A stretch of DNA of 33,513 nucleotides from an uncultured Lachnospiraceae bacterium (GTDB lineage Bacteria > Bacillota > Clostridia > Lachnospirales > Lachnospiraceae): assembly GCA_947385425.1 (NCBI GenBank), contig CANDKY010000037.1, positions 1 through 33,513 of the forward strand. The letters are read 5' to 3'. The position numbers and the translations under genes were made by a program. The notes under the pieces were generated by a model. That model worked only from the letters and a program-made list of their open reading frames with translations. It made no database searches and was not told the DNA's origin. Positions within the stretch are counted from its first letter, which is position 1; each line of letters opens with the position of its first letter. Shown here piece by piece: positions 9,746 to 31,400 of the stretch.

Positions 9746-10390
9746 TTAATTGCCAATCACCCTGCGCAGTTTCCCCTTTATCCGCTGCAAAGCATTATCC
9801 GTTGATTTTCCGTCCCGGCCCAGCACCTTTGCTATCTGCACATAACTCATACCTGTGAGATACAAATCCAGAACCTGCTTTTCAAAAGCACTCAGTTCAC
9901 GCTCGATAATCTTTTCAATCCTCTCCACGTTTTCCCTGTCAATCAGCATTTCTTCCGGGCTCTGCCCGGCCCTGGAAACAAGTACATTCTGTAACTGCGC
10001 TTCCTCCCCGTCCTGTTCGCCGTCCCCCATCCTCCGGCTCACATGGCTGTAAAGCGAAACATAAGTATTCAGCGGGGCATGCTTCTGGCGCCCGGAAGCC
10101 TGTACCGCCGTATACATCTGCCGGGAAATGCACAAATCCGCAAAAGTGAAGAAACTGGCATCCCGCCCAATATCATAATCCCTGACGGCTTTAAACAGGC
10201 CTATCATCCCTTCCTGGATAAGATCGTCATTATCCGCCCCAAGGATATACATGGATTTTGCCTTGCTTTTCACCAAATGCTTATACTTATCCATTATGTA
10301 ATCAGTAATCTGCTCCTCGCCGTCCCGCAGACGCACAATCAATTCCTCATCACTGTACTGCCCATATAAATCCTGCATCCTGGCCCCCAT
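9746..10390 (-). CDS. sigH: RNA polymerase sporulation sigma factor SigH
   Basis: A 214-residue sigma-70-family factor of the SigH (Spo0H) type that in Firmicutes directs early sporulation and stationary-phase genes. Region 2 is clear (A-D-N-D-D-L-I-Q-E-G-M-I-G-L-F-K-A-V-R-D, then F-F-T-F-A-D-L-C-I-S-R-Q), and region 4 holds the helix-turn-helix (S-Y-V-Q-I-A-K-V-L-G-R-D-G-K-S-T-D-N-A-L-Q-R split by one gap). The Q-K-H-A-P-L-N-T-Y-V-S-L link is characteristic of SigH. The ATG at 10390 overlaps the stop of the SGNH gene (TGATG), implying coupling; an ATG at 10378 behind GGGGG is an alternative start. Confidence 0.93.
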   Translation of the reverse strand: MGARMQDLYGQYSDEELIVRLRDGEEQITDYIMDKYKHLVKSKAKSMYILGADNDDLIQEGMIGLFKAVRDYDIGRDASFFTFADLCISRQMYTAVQASGRQKHAPLNTYVSLYSHVSRRMGDGEQDGEEAQLQNVLVSRAGQSPEEMLIDRENVERIEKIIERELSAFEKQVLDLYLTGMSYVQIAKVLGRDGKSTDNALQRIKGKLRRVIGN

Positions 10391-12816
10391 CACTGAATTA
10401 CTATGGCCTCTCCGCCATACTCATAGTTTTCCTCCCCGCCTGCATCCATGGCATCAGGCATTTTGTCCTGTGATCCTCCGTCCTGTTCCTGATGCCCTTC
10501 CTGCATTGCCTCTGCAGGGTTTTCCCCTGCCGGAAGATTCCCTCCCGGCGCCGGTTCTATGACCACGGCATCTTCCGCAACCTTCTTATTGTTCTCCTCC
10601 GCCTTCGCTGCCTCTTCCTTCTCCCTCTCCAGCCTTTCTTTCTCCGCCCGGAGCCTTTCTTCTTCGATCCTCTTTGCTTCCTCCGGAGACAGCGTCCTCT
10701 CCGGCGGCAGCGGGCTGTCCGCGTTAAGCCCGTTGCCGCTGATTGTATCCCCGCCTGCCGGGGCGCCGTCTGCCATTCCCCCGCCAAATCCGTCTGTACT
10801 GTTACCGCTGACTGTCCCCTGGGCCTGGCCGTTCCCCAGCCCGCCCCGCTGCACAATCTCTATAATGCTTCTCGCCATATGTTCCGCCAATACCTGATAA
10901 CCTGCCGGATTTCCATGTACACCATCCGGCATATAGTTCGAAATAACCTGCGCATCATGGGTATCAAGAAGATTCGAGTTGTACAGGTCAATCACATCGA
11001 TCTGATACTGGGCCGCCAATTCTTTCACCGCATTGGCATATACCCTTTGAGGCAGCAGGTAATCCCTCTGCGCCCTCAGATAATCATGGAGTACATTCGG
11101 AAGCGGCGTCGCAAATATAATCTTTGCATTCGGATAATCCTTTTTCAGCCCCCGCATAAGCTCATCCACATCCCCGTAAAAAGTCCTGGCCTTCTTTTCC
11201 TCCAGGCTACCCAGTTCCTTTGTTGATGCCGCAAAACCATCGTTCGTACCGCCCATTACCAATATAATATCCGCATCCTCCGGGATTTCCTTATAGCGGT
11301 CCACAAATGCATTATCCCAGTACCTTCCATAAGAAGAACCGCCGACCCCCAGATTATAAACCTCCTCTGCCTGCAAGATATTTTTTAACACAGAAGGATA
11401 GGAATACTGCTGGTAATTCTCCATTTTATCCAAATTGCTTCCTTCCGTAATACTATCCCCAAGACAGGCAATCTTAACATCCGAAAAATCATAACTGCTG
11501 CTGTTAATAACCGCCTTATCCTCACCGTTTGTCTGAACAGTTTCCATATAAGAAGAACATATCTTTCTCCGTTCTTCCAAAGTCATCTCCGGCTCATTCC
11601 TGACATATGGTATTACCTGCCCATCCACCACCGCATTACCCGAGATCGTATCTGCCCCGGCTACATTACCGGATGCCATTCCCGCTTCTTCCGTAATGCC
11701 CGCTGTATTACCGGATTCCCCTTCTTCGGAAACCCCGTTCGCGGACACAGTACCGTCCTCTTCCTCTTCGGCTTCCTCGGGCGTCCCGTTCATGGACACG
11801 GTGTCCTCTTTCTCCTCTTCGGCTTCCGCAGGCATCCCGTTCATGGACACAGTGTCCTCTTCCTCCTCGGCTTCCGCGGGCATCCCGTTCATGGACACAG
11901 TGTCCTCTTCCTCTTCTTCGGCTTCCGCAGGCATCCCGTTCATAGACACGGTGTCCTCTTCCTCCTCTTCGGCTTCCGCGGGTATCCCGTTCATGGACAC
12001 GGTATCTTCTTCCTCTTCCATATCTTTATCTTTCCCATTACCGGATACGGTATCCCCCTCTGCGGACGCTGCGCCATCTGCTGTTTCCGGTTTTTCTGCC
12101 GGCGGTTTCGGTTCAGGCGGCGCATCTATAATAATTGCGCCATCCGCAGCCGCGTCCAGCCCCTGCTGATCCACTTCCTCCGCCGGCATATCTGCACCCA
12201 TTTCCGCCGTTCCTTCCCCTTCCGGCTGTCCGGTACTCACTGCCGGCTGTTCTGCCTGCCCTTCCTGCCCTGCTTCTTCCGCACCGATTACAATTGCACC
12301 TGAGGAAACTTCCAAAGCCGGATCTTTGCCTCCGTCCGGCCCGTCCGCAGAACCCTGGCTTCCTGTTCCCTGCTCATCCCCCCTGTTTCCTGTCTCACCT
12401 GAATCCTCCTGCGGCTGCGATCCCCCCGCATTTTCCTGCGGCTGCGAACCGCCCGCACTCTCCTGCGCCTGCAGATCTTCCGCATTCCCCCCAGTCTCCA
12501 TCCCGCTTTCCCCGTTTACGGCATCCTGGCCTTCCTGCTCCCCGCTCTGCCATTCGTCCAGCACCAGAACCGAATTCACCTGTTCATCCAAAAATATCTG
12601 TAAAGCTTCCGCATCCCCTGCCAGCTCTTCAATCTGCACCCGTACACTGTCAACTTCCTGCTGCACTTCCTGATGCCTTGCAGCCCACTCCTTCTCCTGC
12701 TTTTTATCCAAATACAGCCGATACCCCTTAAAAATTAAAACCGATGCCAGAACAATTGACAGGACACCAATCAATACCAGCAAACTTTTCTGAACTTTAT
12801 CCAAACCCTTTTTCAT
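10390..12816 (-). CDS. Membrane-anchored SGNH/GDSL hydrolase with acidic repeats
   Basis: An 808-residue extracytoplasmic protein. One membrane segment (about 11-30) follows a basic start, then a coiled coil (35-70), a long low-complexity acidic region (90-400), the SGNH domain (445-656) and a charged helical and Q/G-rich tail. Catalytic blocks are intact: G-D-S-I-T-E-G-S with Ser455, G-G-T-N-D with Asn525, and D-G-V-H with Asp631 and His634. The enzyme probably removes acyl groups from a wall or surface glycan; the substrate is unknown. Residues 255-361 hold six or seven repeats around D-T-V-S-M-N-G. The start (M-K-K-G-L-D) has GGAGG five bases upstream. The gene sits between rlmB and sigH, where other Firmicutes have yacP/rae1. 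Confidence 0.88.
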   Translation of the reverse strand: MKKGLDKVQKSLLVLIGVLSIVLASVLIFKGYRLYLDKKQEKEWAARHQEVQQEVDSVRVQIEELAGDAEALQIFLDEQVNSVLVLDEWQSGEQEGQDAVNGESGMETGGNAEDLQAQESAGGSQPQENAGGSQPQEDSGETGNRGDEQGTGSQGSADGPDGGKDPALEVSSGAIVIGAEEAGQEGQAEQPAVSTGQPEGEGTAEMGADMPAEEVDQQGLDAAADGAIIIDAPPEPKPPAEKPETADGAASAEGDTVSGNGKDKDMEEEEDTVSMNGIPAEAEEEEEDTVSMNGMPAEAEEEEEDTVSMNGMPAEAEEEEDTVSMNGMPAEAEEEKEDTVSMNGTPEEAEEEEDGTVSANGVSEEGESGNTAGITEEAGMASGNVAGADTISGNAVVDGQVIPYVRNEPEMTLEERRKICSSYMETVQTNGEDKAVINSSSYDFSDVKIACLGDSITEGSNLDKMENYQQYSYPSVLKNILQAEEVYNLGVGGSSYGRYWDNAFVDRYKEIPEDADIILVMGGTNDGFAASTKELGSLEEKKARTFYGDVDELMRGLKKDYPNAKIIFATPLPNVLHDYLRAQRDYLLPQRVYANAVKELAAQYQIDVIDLYNSNLLDTHDAQVISNYMPDGVHGNPAGYQVLAEHMARSIIEIVQRGGLGNGQAQGTVSGNSTDGFGGGMADGAPAGGDTISGNGLNADSPLPPERTLSPEEAKRIEEERLRAEKERLEREKEEAAKAEENNKKVAEDAVVIEPAPGGNLPAGENPAEAMQEGHQEQDGGSQDKMPDAMDAGGEENYEYGGEAIVIQ
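11734..12054. repeat. 48-54 bp coding minisatellite in the SGNH hydrolase gene
   Basis: Repeated units encode D-T-V-S-M-N-G-M-P-A-E-A followed by a glutamate run of variable length (4-6 residues), so unit length varies by whole codons. The core (D/G)-T-(V/I)-S-(G/M/A)-N recurs outside the array as well (near residues 389, 667 and 690). Confidence 0.85.
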
Positions 12817-12929
12817 AATAACCTCCATGCCACTGCCATACAGCAGCGCCAATCAAATACACAACCCCGCCCAAACCTCCCCGTCCCACCGCATCCTGCC
12901 CAAAACCATTCTCCCTCAGTCTCACACAC

Positions 12930-26369: not shown

Positions 26370-27170
26370 CTAACCGCCCTGCACCACAACGCGTTTCAAT
26401 GTTTTTCCCATAACCCAACACCCCATACCCGCCAGGACAGCCAGCCAGAAAACCTGAAGCCCCATAGCACACACCGCGTCCCTGCCGGCCAAAGAACCGC
26501 TGTATATCAGCAAAGGCGTACTCTGGGTAGCCGCAAAAGGCAGAAACTGCACCACCCTCCGTAAGCCTTCCGGGAAATAGGGGAGCGGAATCAAACTGCC
26601 CGCAAAGAAACCGACAACAGCACGTCCAATGATTTTCACTCCACGCTGGGAAGTAGTATAAAACATAGTAATATGCATCAGCACGGCAATAGCGCCCGAC
26701 ACTGCAAGGGCAAGCGCCGTCGAAACAAGAAACAGCGCCGCATCCGCCGCACCGGGAACCCTGAGCCGGTACGGCTCCGGCATACATAGGGCAATCACCA
26801 GCACCGGAAGGCAGTTTATGGCCGTTGGCGCGAACCGGTTGGCCAGACATTGGGTGAACCAGTTCCCGTACAGACTCATCGGCCTGACCAGCTCATAGGC
26901 GACTGAACCGTCATTAATCGACGCTTCAATTTCCGGATCGCCGTCAATCACATTGTACATCAGGATAAAAGCCTGCTGAATCCAGATATAAGAGGCCGTC
27001 TGGGAAAAAGTCATGGCAAAACTGCCGCCGCCCGACCGATGGAGCGCTAAAAAAGCAAGTATTTCCATAAAGGCCCAGCAAAACCTGGTAAGTATCGCCC
27101 CCAGCGCAACAGCCCGGTACTGCAGTCCGTTGATCATCCGGATACGGAACAAAGACAAATAACTCTTCAT
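26370..27170 (-). CDS. ABC-2 type permease (first)
   Basis: A 266-residue membrane protein of the same ABC-2/DUF990-like type as the one at 25244, with six predicted segments. The cytoplasmic loop carries I-N-D-G-S-V-A-Y-E-L-V-R-P-M-S-L-Y, which corresponds to the T-R-P-G-N-L loop of its partner. Its ATG overlaps the ATPase stop by four bases (ATGA), and AAGGAG lies in the end of the ATPase gene, so translation is coupled. The 350-bp gap to the second permease is filled by repeats, unusual inside an operon. Confidence 0.9.
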   Translation of the reverse strand: MKSYLSLFRIRMINGLQYRAVALGAILTRFCWAFMEILAFLALHRSGGGSFAMTFSQTASYIWIQQAFILMYNVIDGDPEIEASINDGSVAYELVRPMSLYGNWFTQCLANRFAPTAINCLPVLVIALCMPEPYRLRVPGAADAALFLVSTALALAVSGAIAVLMHITMFYTTSQRGVKIIGRAVVGFFAGSLIPLPYFPEGLRRVVQFLPFAATQSTPLLIYSGSLAGRDAVCAMGLQVFWLAVLAGMGCWVMGKTLKRVVVQGG

Positions 27171-28141
27171 ATCTGATACTCCTTATAAAGCGCCGCCACT
27201 ACCTCTTCGGCGGAAATATCGGTAACAGACACATCCAGCAGCTCCGTCTGGGACGCGAGCGAAGCAATGGCCACGCTTACCGGCAGGATAGCAGGGTCAA
27301 GGGCTACCGTGAGCTGATTTTCTTTCGCTTCCCGGAGCTCCATGCCTCCGGAAACGGCAGGCATACTGCCCGTGTATTTTATGGTTATTATCTTCTCTGT
27401 GGACGTATGCCTTTTCAATTCCTCCAGAGTCCCGTCCAAAAGAATCCTGCCATGCCCGATTAGCAGGACACGGTCCGCCAAAGCCTCTATATCCATCATA
27501 TCGTGCGTAGTGAGCACAACCGTGGTATGCTTCTCTTCCTTTATTTTTTTGACAAACTGACGCACGGCAATCTTCGAAACCGCATCCAGGCCGATGGTCG
27601 GCTCATCCAGGAAAAGCACCTTAGGTTCATGCAGCAGCGACGCCGCAATTTCACACCGCATACGCTGCCCCAGGCTCAGATTCCTTGCCGGCGTTTTAAG
27701 AAGCTCCGAAAGCTCCAGGAGCCGGGCCAGTTCCTCCAAATTACGCCTGTACCGCCGCTCCTCCATTTTGTACATATCCCGCAGAAGCTCGAAACTGTCG
27801 ATGACCGGCACATCCCACCAAAGCTGGCTGCGCTGCCCGAACACAACGCCGATGTCCTTCACATGGGAAGCCCGTTCCTTCCAGGGAATTTTCCCATTCA
27901 CAAGGCAATTCCCGCTGTCCGGGGTCAAAATACCGCACATCACCTTTACCGTCGTGCTTTTCCCCGCTCCGTTCGGCCCGATATACCCGATGATTTCCCC
28001 GTCCGCTATACGGAAACTCACATTATCCAGAGCCTGAACCGTCTCATACTCCCGGGAAAACAGCGACTTCACGGCATTCCTGAACCCTGCCTGGCGTTTT
28101 GCCACCCGGTATGTCTTACAAACCTTTTGAAATTCGATCAT
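27167..28141 (-). CDS. ABC transporter ATP-binding protein
   Basis: A 324-residue ATPase that powers the two permeases downstream. Walker A is G-P-N-G-A-G-K-S-T-T, the Q-loop is in V-V-F-G-Q-R-S-Q-L-W-W, the signature is L-S-L-G-Q-R-M-R-C, Walker B is V-L-F-L-D-E-P-T-I-G-L-D and the switch histidine is in T-T-H-D-M-M-D. A C-terminal extension of about 80 residues is typical of ABC-2 exporters. The long N-terminal segment before Walker A (A-G-F-R-N-A-V-K-S-L-F) is as in DUF990-linked ATPases. GGAGG lies five bases upstream of the start M-I-E-F-Q-K, so the M at 28165 is not used. Confidence 0.95.
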   Translation of the reverse strand: MIEFQKVCKTYRVAKRQAGFRNAVKSLFSREYETVQALDNVSFRIADGEIIGYIGPNGAGKSTTVKVMCGILTPDSGNCLVNGKIPWKERASHVKDIGVVFGQRSQLWWDVPVIDSFELLRDMYKMEERRYRRNLEELARLLELSELLKTPARNLSLGQRMRCEIAASLLHEPKVLFLDEPTIGLDAVSKIAVRQFVKKIKEEKHTTVVLTTHDMMDIEALADRVLLIGHGRILLDGTLEELKRHTSTEKIITIKYTGSMPAVSGGMELREAKENQLTVALDPAILPVSVAIASLASQTELLDVSVTDISAEEVVAALYKEYQI

Positions 28142-28259
28142 GCCAACCTCCTTTTCCTCCTCCATAATATCCTTCTGACACAGATGAAAAAAAACTTCCA
28201 GGGCATCCTTCCGCGCGAAATGGACTTAAAATATCCTTCCCTGTGTTACAGTTCGCTCC

Positions 28260-28450
28260 CCAATGTCATTAACTTAAGCTTCCCGGAGCGCCGCAGACCA
28301 CATATCTCATCCGGACACGCTTTCGCTCAGCGGCAGACGCAACGGCACTAAGGCGCCAAAACACGGCGCCTAAGTGCCGACGTCTTTCAATGGTCCGGAT
28401 TGAGATATATGTTCTGCAGCGCCCCGAAAAGCTTAAGTTAATGACATTGG
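28260..28450. repeat. Repeat family D: 190-bp inverted-repeat element
   Basis: Two arms of about 60 bp face each other: CCAATGTCATTAACTTAAGC at the left end and exactly the same read from the right end, continuing through ...CGCAGACCA, ATATCTCA and CCGGAC with few differences. The centre is another hairpin: CGGCACTAAGGCGCC with GGCGCCTAAGTGCCG. The whole can fold into one long structure or cruciform. It fills the gap between the HipA-like gene and the ABC ATPase gene. Another copy starts at 33459. Confidence 0.85.
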
Positions 28451-28632: not shown

Positions 28633-29730
28633 TTATAGATTATTTACCCTTCTCATCATACTGTCATACTCTTCCGCCGACTTACACTTCAGGAATGTTT
28701 CCTTAAATGTACTGCTGCCGATTATCTCCCGGAACCGCACCGTATCGATCGTACTGTAATACCTGTAATATTTCGTTTTCAGAAGTTCCAACGTCTTACT
28801 GAATGTAATGCCGGTAGGAAAATAATTGCCATTGGGGCTTTTCCCTTTAAAGCATGAATCATGATCAAACAGCGGATACATCCCCAGCATCTTCCCCCTA
28901 TACACCAAAAGCCCGAAATTATCCCTGTTCCTGTCCGTATTCAGCACTACGTAATCCAGAATCTGCATCCGGATAAAATTGATGGGATCAACTTTCATAA
29001 AGAATGCATAATATTCCCCCTGGTAATTCATCTGGTTCGTATTGTAATAAGACAGGATATCCCGGCATGGAACCAGCTCCCTGTCGTCACAGGTCAAAAT
29101 CTCGCATACCGAACATTCCTTTCCGAACATATTCCTGATCTCATACCTGGAACACGCAATCCCCAACGCCTGCGCAATATAATAAGTGATCACTTCCGAC
29201 AAAATCTCCGCCCTTGTTTCATTCTTTATCATAACCACTTTATTATCCGTGCGGTAATAGCATTTCGCCTTCGTCCCTTTGCCCGTCAGCTCCCCGGTAA
29301 ATACCTTATCATCCACCATATCGGCATGCTGCATATTACCGGTAAGCGCTATGTGGGAAATATTCAGGGAAAAATTGTTATTATACAAATTAAATTCTTC
29401 CCATGTTTCCTTCTTATTCGTCCTGGAGATCCAGTAATTGTCCCGGAAGCTCAGTGCCCTGCACATAATACAGATATTGATGTCACTCTGATCCTCAATC
29501 CCGCACGCCGTCAATATCTCCTTGCAATACCCCCGGTTCAGCGTCAGTATCCGGTCGGAACAGAACTTCTGCACCAGATCAAAGCTGACCGGCTTATTCT
29601 GCAGCGATATAGGCAGAAGATTGCTGTTTACCATCACTATCGTTTTCTGGTCAATATTGAATTTAAATACAATATCGTTCCTGTATTTCAGGCAATACTC
29701 TATTTTCTGATACAATTTATTCATTCCCAT
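28633..29730 (-). CDS. HipA-like serine/threonine kinase
   Basis: A 365-residue cytoplasmic protein. The C-terminal half is a HipA/CtkA-type kinase fold: an ATP-binding lysine in K-V-V-M-I-K-N-E (about Lys169), the catalytic loop N-T-D-R-N-R-D-N-F-G (Asp266, Asn271) and the metal site P-L-F-D-H-D-S (Asp289, Asp291). The N-terminal 130 residues are a separate module with S-D-R-I-L-T-L-N-R and F-R-D-N-Y-W-I-S-R, as in CtkA-like proteins. It does not look like the HipA N-subdomain. The start overlaps the small gene at 29717 by 14 bp. No HipB-like helix-turn-helix gene is adjacent. Target unknown; phosphorylation of a protein such as a tRNA synthetase would be by analogy only. Confidence 0.82.
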   Translation of the reverse strand: MGMNKLYQKIEYCLKYRNDIVFKFNIDQKTIVMVNSNLLPISLQNKPVSFDLVQKFCSDRILTLNRGYCKEILTACGIEDQSDINICIMCRALSFRDNYWISRTNKKETWEEFNLYNNNFSLNISHIALTGNMQHADMVDDKVFTGELTGKGTKAKCYYRTDNKVVMIKNETRAEILSEVITYYIAQALGIACSRYEIRNMFGKECSVCEILTCDDRELVPCRDILSYYNTNQMNYQGEYYAFFMKVDPINFIRMQILDYVVLNTDRNRDNFGLLVYRGKMLGMYPLFDHDSCFKGKSPNGNYFPTGITFSKTLELLKTKYYRYYSTIDTVRFREIIGSSTFKETFLKCKSAEEYDSMMRRVNNL

Positions 29731-30007
29731 AATTCTCCCCCGGCAGCAGATTATGCTTCGTTTTATATTCGTCCCACTTTAAAAGCGCCTCCCCATCATC
29801 TGCCAAATGATATTCTTCCTTGATTTTTTGAATCATATATGATAAAATTTCTTCTTTCGCCGCCTCACGCTTCGAAGCATTGATTAGCCCGCACTCGTCA
29901 AAATCCCCATAATCTATATTCCCGTCAAACCGCTTCCCAAGCATATTTTCAATGATATCATTCCGCTCCTCTTCGGAAACCGGCACTGTCAGACTCCCTA
30001 TTACCAT
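29717..30007 (-). CDS. Small acidic partner of the HipA-like kinase
   Basis: A 96-residue acidic protein. It opens M-V-I-G-S-L-T-V-P-V-S-E-E-E-R, has G-N-I-D-Y-G-D-F-D-E-C-G-L and a helical region (A-K-E-E-I-L-S-Y-M-I-Q-K-I-K), and ends with a short basic-acidic tail. It has no helix-turn-helix I can see, so it is not a typical HipB. The start at 30007 is chosen because GGAGG lies five bases upstream; the ATG at 30028 would lie only six bases from the predicted transcription start. It is the first gene of a two-gene operon with the kinase; a role as antitoxin, substrate or adaptor is inference from that arrangement. Confidence 0.78.
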   Translation of the reverse strand: MVIGSLTVPVSEEERNDIIENMLGKRFDGNIDYGDFDECGLINASKREAAKEEILSYMIQKIKEEYHLADDGEALLKWDEYKTKHNLLPGENYGNE

Positions 30008-30040
30008 AACATCCTCCGGAATTTGCATTTTTTTATTGCC

Positions 30041-30069
30041 ATTATAACCTGAAAACTGAAAAAATGCAA
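30041..30069 (-). promoter_or_regulatory. Promoter of the HipA-like operon
   Basis: Minus strand TTGCAT (30064-30069), exactly 17 bases, TATAAT (30041-30046). Transcription near 30034 leaves a leader of about 27 nt. TTGCAT and the following ATGCAAATT near 30024 form a short direct-inverted pattern (AAATGCAAATT seen twice nearby: 30061-30071 read on plus, and 30031-30021 read on minus), a possible operator. Confidence 0.65.
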
Positions 30070-30086
30070 ATTATTGGCACTTCCTT

Positions 30087-30311: not shown

Positions 30312-31400
30312 ATGGAACATTTCAATCCCTTACTGCAGAACAGTGAAATCCCGCAGAAATTTATCACCATCGGTGAAATCATGCTTCGACTGACCCCTCC
30401 CAACTATGCCAAGATCCGTATGGCAAACACTTTCGAGGCCAGCTACGGAGGCAGCGAAGCCAATATCGCACTGGCGCTTGCCAACCTCGGCATTGACAGC
30501 ACTTTTTTCAGTGTGGTGCCCAATAACAGCCTCGGAAAAAGCGCAGTCCGCATGCTGCGAAGCAATGACGTACACTGTACGCCTGTCATCTTAAGCACAC
30601 CGGAGGAAACCCCTACCCACCGCCTGGGCACCTATTATCTGGAGACCGGATACGGCATACGCGCCAGCAAAGTTACCTATGACCGGAAAAACAGCGCCAT
30701 TACGGAATATGATTTTGACAAAGTGGACATCAGCGCATTATTGGAAGGCTTTGACTGGCTGCACTTAAGCGGCATCACCCCGGCCCTCGCACCCAACTGC
30801 CGGAAGCTTATCATGGACAGCCTGAAAGCCGCCAACGAAAAAGGCATGACCGTAAGTTTCGACGGCAATTTCCGCAGCGCCCTGTGGAGCTGGGAAGAGG
30901 CAAGGGATTTCTGCACCCAATGCCTGCCTTATGTGGACGTGCTGTTCGGCATCGAACCTTACCACCTCTGGAAAGACGAATCCGACCACAGCCTGGGCGA
31001 CTGCAAAGACGATATCCCCCTGCAGCCCTCTTACGAACAGCAGGACGATATTTTCCGCCATTTCGCAGACCGCTTCCCGAACTTGAAATGCATTGCGCGC
31101 CACGTCCGCTATGCCCACAGCGGCAGCGAAAACAGCCTGAAAGCATTTATGTGGTACGAAGGCCATACCTTCGAAAGCCGCCTGTTCACCTTCAATATCC
31201 TGGACAGGGTAGGCGGGGGCGACGCTTTTGCCAGCGGCCTGATCTATGCCATCATGCACAACTACCGTGCCATGGACATGATAAACTTCGCGGTGGCAAG
31301 CAGCGTAATCAAGCATACCATCCACGGAGATGCCAATATAACCGACGATGCCAGGAGCATCCGTAACCTTATGAACATGAACTATGACATTAAACGGTAA
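30312..31400 (+). CDS. kdgK: 2-dehydro-3-deoxygluconokinase (PfkB family)
   Basis: A 362-residue PfkB-family sugar kinase, best matched to KdgK, which phosphorylates 2-keto-3-deoxygluconate before cleavage by KDPG aldolase in hexuronate breakdown. The N-terminal motif G-G-S-E-A-N-I-A-L-A-L-A-N-L-G (46-60), F-D-G-N-F-R (183-188) and the anion-hole and catalytic motif D-R-V-G-G-G-D-A-F-A-S-G (Asp304) are intact. AAGGAGG lies eight bases upstream of the ATG; the frame from 30090 crosses the promoter and repeat. No aldolase or uronate gene is adjacent in the window, so the exact sugar is inferred; fructokinase-like activity is the alternative. Confidence 0.88.
   Translation: MEHFNPLLQNSEIPQKFITIGEIMLRLTPPNYAKIRMANTFEASYGGSEANIALALANLGIDSTFFSVVPNNSLGKSAVRMLRSNDVHCTPVILSTPEETPTHRLGTYYLETGYGIRASKVTYDRKNSAITEYDFDKVDISALLEGFDWLHLSGITPALAPNCRKLIMDSLKAANEKGMTVSFDGNFRSALWSWEEARDFCTQCLPYVDVLFGIEPYHLWKDESDHSLGDCKDDIPLQPSYEQQDDIFRHFADRFPNLKCIARHVRYAHSGSENSLKAFMWYEGHTFESRLFTFNILDRVGGGDAFASGLIYAIMHNYRAMDMINFAVASSVIKHTIHGDANITDDARSIRNLMNMNYDIKR

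Follow-up and report, generated by a model that had tools for sequence, protein, structure and literature searches.

A HipA/CtkA-type kinase gene and an overlapping gene for a small acidic partner form a conserved two-gene module in Lachnospiraceae

The window, the whole 33,513-nucleotide stretch of DNA from an uncultured Lachnospiraceae bacterium that was analysed here, carries a kinase gene of the HipA/CtkA type directly preceded by a gene for a small acidic protein, which we call the partner (Table 1). The 14-bp overlap described in an earlier note on this DNA is borne out by the open reading frames. The longest partner frame (29717-30028) would encode 103 residues from an in-frame upstream ATG at 30028, and we prefer the 96-residue start because GGAGGA precedes the ATG at 30007; the partner length given earlier therefore stands. 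The earlier proposal of one strong promoter holds only in part: a promoter-like site is present upstream of the partner, but the scan found eight such sites against a mean of 5.6 (SD 1.9) in shuffled sequence, a count not clearly above the shuffles, so that support for this site comes solely from its position. The module is flanked by genes for an ABC transporter (27167-28165) and a PfkB sugar kinase (30312-31400), and no helix-turn-helix (HTH) gene adjoins the pair.

Table 1. Features of the kinase-partner module (window positions)
Feature	Position	Strand	Basis
Kinase gene, HipA/CtkA-type, 365 aa	28633..29730	minus	ORF, profile and predicted fold
Partner gene, 96 aa, pI 4.5, predicted helical	29717..30007	minus	ORF, conserved as protein
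Overlap of partner end and kinase start, 14 nt	29717..29730	minus	ORFs
N-domain, about residues 10-130, HipA N-subdomain-like by fold	29341..29703	minus	predicted fold
Gly-rich loop, residues 145-156 (TGELTGKGTKAK)	29263..29298	minus	loop assigned by its position
Catalytic loop, residues 264-273 (NTDRNRDNFG), Asn at usual His	28912..28941	minus	motif comparison
Metal-binding motif, residues 286-291 (PLFDHD), including D289	28858..28875	minus	motif comparison
GGAGGA, Shine-Dalgarno-like, four bases before partner ATG at 30007	30012..30017	minus	sequence
Promoter-like site TTTGCA-18-TATAAT, 10/12	30041..30070	minus	promoter scan

Several repeats also occur in the window. A MITE-like element of 191 bp (28260-28450), with 50-nt inverted ends that are 88% complementary, lies downstream of the kinase; the genome has at least 40 near-full copies, this one included, with the others at 89-98% identity (scoring covered 40 of 249 candidates). 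One arm of this repeat, 92% identical over 51 nt, stands at the contig end (33458-33508) and is probably a copy where the assembly broke. Positions 1320-1706 hold a tandem 109-nt repeat with three copies of 96-100% identity and a partial fourth, while a 48-51 nt repeat with six copies (11670-12069), inside an 820-aa ORF (10390-12852), encodes an acidic EEEEDTVSMNGMPAE-like unit.

The catalytic motifs of the kinase are intact, as had been claimed, with D266-R-N-R-D-N271-F-G and F-D289-H-D both present in a basic protein (pI 8.5). An HMM search of both proteins, which the earlier note had proposed, matched the kinase marginally to Pfam HipA_C (E 0.07) and the partner to no known family. The nearest solved sequence to a profile of 40 relatives was CtkA (3akj, E 8.9e-21), and a Foldseek search with the kinase model gave a best match of E 1.8e-8, reported for homology to the CtkA core; both the profile match and the structural match are limited to the core and leave the N-domain outside the CtkA-aligned part. 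The first 130 residues had been described as unlike HipA. This is true of their sequence (Pfam, NCBIfam) but not of the predicted fold, since the whole-kinase model matches HipA across nearly its whole length, N-subdomain and core alike. The model thus predicts a HipA architecture, in which a HipS-like lid domain is fused to a CtkA/HipA core. Residues 147-294 of the core also match PADLOC PDC-M03A (E 2.4e-15, with no curated PADLOC cut-off given).

The partner is an acidic protein of no recognised family and without a recognisable DNA-binding fold. No HTH match was obtained from Pfam or NCBIfam, in agreement with the earlier reading. The partners of all five relatives that carry the pair are acidic (pI 4.4-5.1), and one Trp is conserved in all five, 10-19 residues before the C-end. 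With five members searched at E up to 10, Pfam gave only DUF3201 (E 0.018) and TNP-like_RNaseH_N (E 0.078), in one member each, and NCBIfam gave only YebC (E 0.035, one of five); all three matches fall far under curated cut-offs. A suspected likeness to DUF3791 found no support, as that family was absent from the Pfam scan output. Three partners had no match in PADLOC (for the window's partner, none at E up to 1), and neither the best match of the window's partner to PHROGs (E 0.08) nor the best match to PDB sequences (E 0.11) was meaningful. The structure model of the partner, built from two sequences, is helical with low confidence (mean pLDDT 62), and its best Foldseek match (E 2.0) was likewise not meaningful.

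The kinase-partner pair is a real, conserved module without shared flanks. We found it in five genomes (G000, G312, G316, G016 and G143), two of whose kinases are cut by contig ends (L004, and that of G312, which appears as L033 and L034). In a midpoint-rooted tree of 62 kinases the five pair-bearers form one group (100/99) with one change of label, and the partner is present at all five clade loci and absent from the other 57, with about 1.5 kb covered on each side of the kinase, or less where a contig ends. Conservation of the small gene beside homologous kinases, a point raised in the earlier note, was seen within this clade. A partner profile built without G316 picked out G316 at E 2.7e-21, where the adjoining gene is a kinase of the same clade, so we consider the pairing to be beyond chance. 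Across 397 genomes the partner profile gave four matches below 1e-20 (G000, G016, G143 and G316), each adjoining such a kinase. In all, 36 of these genomes match at E up to 0.1; beyond the four, the values are 9.5e-4 or worse and mostly lie within long frames, and we took them as chance without opening the loci individually. When the 62 kinase loci and 28 viral loci were searched in six frames with a five-partner profile, the five came back, which is by construction as the profile was built from them, and nothing else scored below E 0.016.

The arrangement and divergence of the two genes agree with this. The order is partner then kinase in all five cases, and the genes overlap in four: by 14 nt in the window, 8 nt in L038, 1 nt in L003 (at its ATG), and by a longer stretch in L004 that depends on the chosen start. 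An 11-nt gap separates them in L033. A conserved pair of co-directional genes that overlap or lie close together is also characteristic of type II toxin-antitoxin modules. Among the window, L033 and L038, partner pS was 0.76-0.80, near or past saturation, against a pN of 0.24-0.43. The partner ORF is therefore conserved as a protein, though with synonymous sites so saturated we claim no ratio for it. Kinase pN was 0.08-0.25, and the partner diverged faster than the kinase in all three comparisons (0.24 versus 0.08, 0.38 versus 0.25 and 0.43 versus 0.22).

The module is distributed sporadically. Kinase relatives at E up to 0.001 occurred in 78 of 299 genomes of the bacterial family, the window's own included, and the latter has one kinase paralogue. 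Close relatives (E under 1e-50) occurred in only three of the 299, in two of 16 genomes of the genus, and in two of 145 genomes around G316 and two of 145 around G143, all of them previously known carriers. In a class-wide scan of 391 genomes the sole clade member was the window's own, the other known carriers not having appeared in the sample. We note that the genome samples behind these counts overlap. Weak kinase relatives (22-28% identity) were found in six of 50,697 phage records and in 14 of 72,556 plasmid records, with Campylobacter and Helicobacter accounting for several, and a motif-based scan whose pattern demands His found 28 viral loci with distant kinase relatives; neither the window's subfamily kinase nor the partner had a match in viral scans. 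DNA similarity between the window and G312 covers the module only (window 28664-29985) and ends at both sides. The G312 pfkB gene, 93% identical to the window's neighbour, lies on another contig without similar DNA upstream, so that no exact empty site with a clean insertion point could be shown in G312. The gene pair looks small and portable.

Members of the clade share a change in the catalytic loop. The His of the D-R-H-x-x-N loop is Asn in all four readable members (window, L038, L003 and L034) and is kept in all 57 other kinases from genome searches; a further 17 viral kinases also have His (74 of 74 with them), but these were found by a His-requiring pattern and were left out. The paralogue L002 keeps the His. 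L003, alone among the four, also has Asn in place of the catalytic Asp, and its kinase may therefore be inactive. This locus (L003:1441-2586) is possibly a pseudokinase keeping its partner, and a 445-aa ORF follows closely. In HipT, phospho-Ser59 contacts Lys161, His212 and the catalytic Asp210, according to an excerpt of PMC10627512. Judging from the D-x-H spacing, the clade's Asn would correspond to HipT His212, and the change from His to Asn may reflect a move away from autophosphorylation, with the partner taking over control.

Kinase relatives outside the clade hold other proteins in the slot upstream of the kinase. In L085 a separately encoded HTH protein of 96 aa (Pfam HTH_3, just above cut-off) lies 12-14 nt upstream, and near-identical ORFs occupy the slot in L088 and L089. 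An HTH is fused to the kinase N-terminus in L028 (Pfam) and, by eye, in L075, L076, L079 and L080, while Fic proteins fill the slot in L120 (Pfam) and, by eye, in L006 and L093. The remaining relatives have nothing recognised there, and most are without a recognised conserved partner. Because relatives hold HTH or other proteins in the same slot, we read the partner as standing in HipB's place. Four kinase relatives of about 500 aa (L020, L083, L087 and L092) share an N-terminal extension of another kind.

In some relatives the N-domain seems to be a separate gene. On the viral contig L120 a Fic protein comes first, then a 266-aa core kinase and, overlapping it by 29 nt, a 125-aa protein with a match to the N-terminal region of the family profile. 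The row spans L120:1306-3198, and its Fic protein matches PADLOC PDC-S04 at E 6e-107. L008 has a 104-aa ORF before a 285-aa core kinase, with a weak N-domain profile match (hmmsearch 16.8 bits with that sequence alone, hhalign probability 77.5%) and no DxYW motif. By these matches L120 is the better case of a split, and a separate N-domain gene is less sure in L008. Both split relatives match PDC-M03A, and their small proteins match PDC-M03B weakly (E 0.0014 for L120 and 0.0009 for L008); the window's own N-domain alone gave no match to PDC-M03B. Given the separate N-domain genes and these weak matches, A and B of PDC-M03 may represent a split arrangement, comparable with HipT and HipS relative to HipA.

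We suggest that the pair is a self-contained two-gene module of the toxin-antitoxin kind, a reading to which we give about an even chance and in which toxicity, binding, inhibition and target are putative. The free kinase, presumably acting on Ser/Thr, would phosphorylate a host protein, probably one of translation, and this would stop growth. The upstream acidic partner, probably translated in a coupled way with the kinase, would bind the basic kinase and keep it inactive; its gene would stand where that of HipB does, although the protein has no recognisable DNA-binding fold. The one-to-one pairing, the antitoxin-first order and the HTH that some relatives have in the equivalent slot argue for this, as do the acidic partners set against a basic kinase, the faster divergence of the partner, the sporadic module and the HipA-like predicted fold. 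On the other side, restraint in trans is not a requirement for kinases of this family, given that most relatives lack a recognised conserved partner; the clade is known from five genomes, L003 is perhaps inactive and the partner model is of low confidence.

The earlier note had offered a toxin-antitoxin pair, a phage-defence kinase and a CtkA-like effector with an adaptor as options, and these now differ in weight. That the kinase serves in abortive infection, with the partner as a sensor or activator that infection alters so that the kinase shuts the cell down, is possible though rather improbable. The core matches the defence candidate PDC-M03A, split relatives match PDC-M03A and weakly PDC-M03B, distant relatives lie on viral contigs (28 loci) and in six phage records, and the sporadic module has no flanks common to two congeners. 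However, PDC-M03 is itself a candidate, and the open-licence literature yielded no paper that names it; no viral contig emerged from scans for the window's subfamily, and a look by eye through the ORFs of at least 150 aa in window positions 1-24300 showed no recognisable defence gene. An effector of the CtkA type, putatively secreted with a chaperone-like partner, is very unlikely: secretion chaperones are typically small, acidic and helical and encoded next to the effector, which suits the small acidic, predicted helical partner, and CtkA is the nearest solved sequence, but no secretion genes were noticed by eye within the window and the kinase model has an N-domain beyond the CtkA-aligned part. 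We consider it unlikely, if less so, that the kinase is regulatory and the partner its own adaptor or substrate, recruiting a target or being phosphorylated with no growth arrest. One-to-one pairing and opposite charge would fit such a role, the clade-specific loss of His suggests altered catalysis or regulation, and CtkA, with the same fold, can act as a signalling effector (PMC5536186, in excerpt). Sporadic spread without shared flanks, however, would be more natural in a selfish or defence module than in a housekeeping pathway, and the HTH-bearing relatives point to HipBA-like logic.

Under the toxin-antitoxin reading, the module looks like a known kind of bacterial growth-control switch in which the partner replaces the expected DNA-binding antitoxin. 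HipA-type kinases are a model for persistence. If the reading is true, a non-HTH partner tied to a unique catalytic-loop change would be another way to restrain the HipA fold, and the module would offer a clean test system, its nearest neighbours in the kinase tree having kept the His and lacking such a partner. More tentatively, the pair may represent a new HipA-type toxin-antitoxin class, in which an acidic, helical, non-DNA-binding partner replaced HipB and loss of His on the same branch swapped off-switching by autophosphorylation for partner control.

Control proteins described for HipA-type kinases are HipB, HipS, HipN, HipR and HipP, which are HTH, HipS-like, HIRAN, Stl-like or resolvase-like, and none of the ten gene organisations set out in the portions of PMC8262856 used here has a partner like the window's. 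Titles and abstract starts in the open-licence literature likewise held nothing describing this kinase-partner pair. The module was earlier said to differ from both HipBA and three-gene HipBST, and we agree. It shares with HipBA the predicted fold of N-subdomain and core, the kinase motifs and an antitoxin-first gene order, but sequence similarity is marginal, the catalytic-loop His is Asn, and the partner, which matches no HTH family, stands where HipBA has its adjacent HTH antitoxin HipB. In HipBST, HipS is apart from a lid-less kinase, whereas the two genes here include no HipB, the predicted fold places the lid within the kinase itself, and the separate protein is of another kind. The solitary kinases HipH/YjjJ and HipL (PMC8262856, same portions) resemble the many relatives without a recognised partner; HipH has a fused HTH, as do some relatives, while the window's kinase instead has a separate partner without a recognisable HTH. 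CtkA of Helicobacter pylori, compared at the kinase protein alone, is the nearest solved relative, with sequence and structural likeness that cover the core only. PDC-M03 shares its PDC-M03A kinase with the window but has a separate PDC-M03B gene; the window's kinase seems to fuse both parts and adds a new partner, and the HipA-like N-domain fold, separately encoded in some relatives, may link PDC-M03 to the HipS/HipT arrangement.
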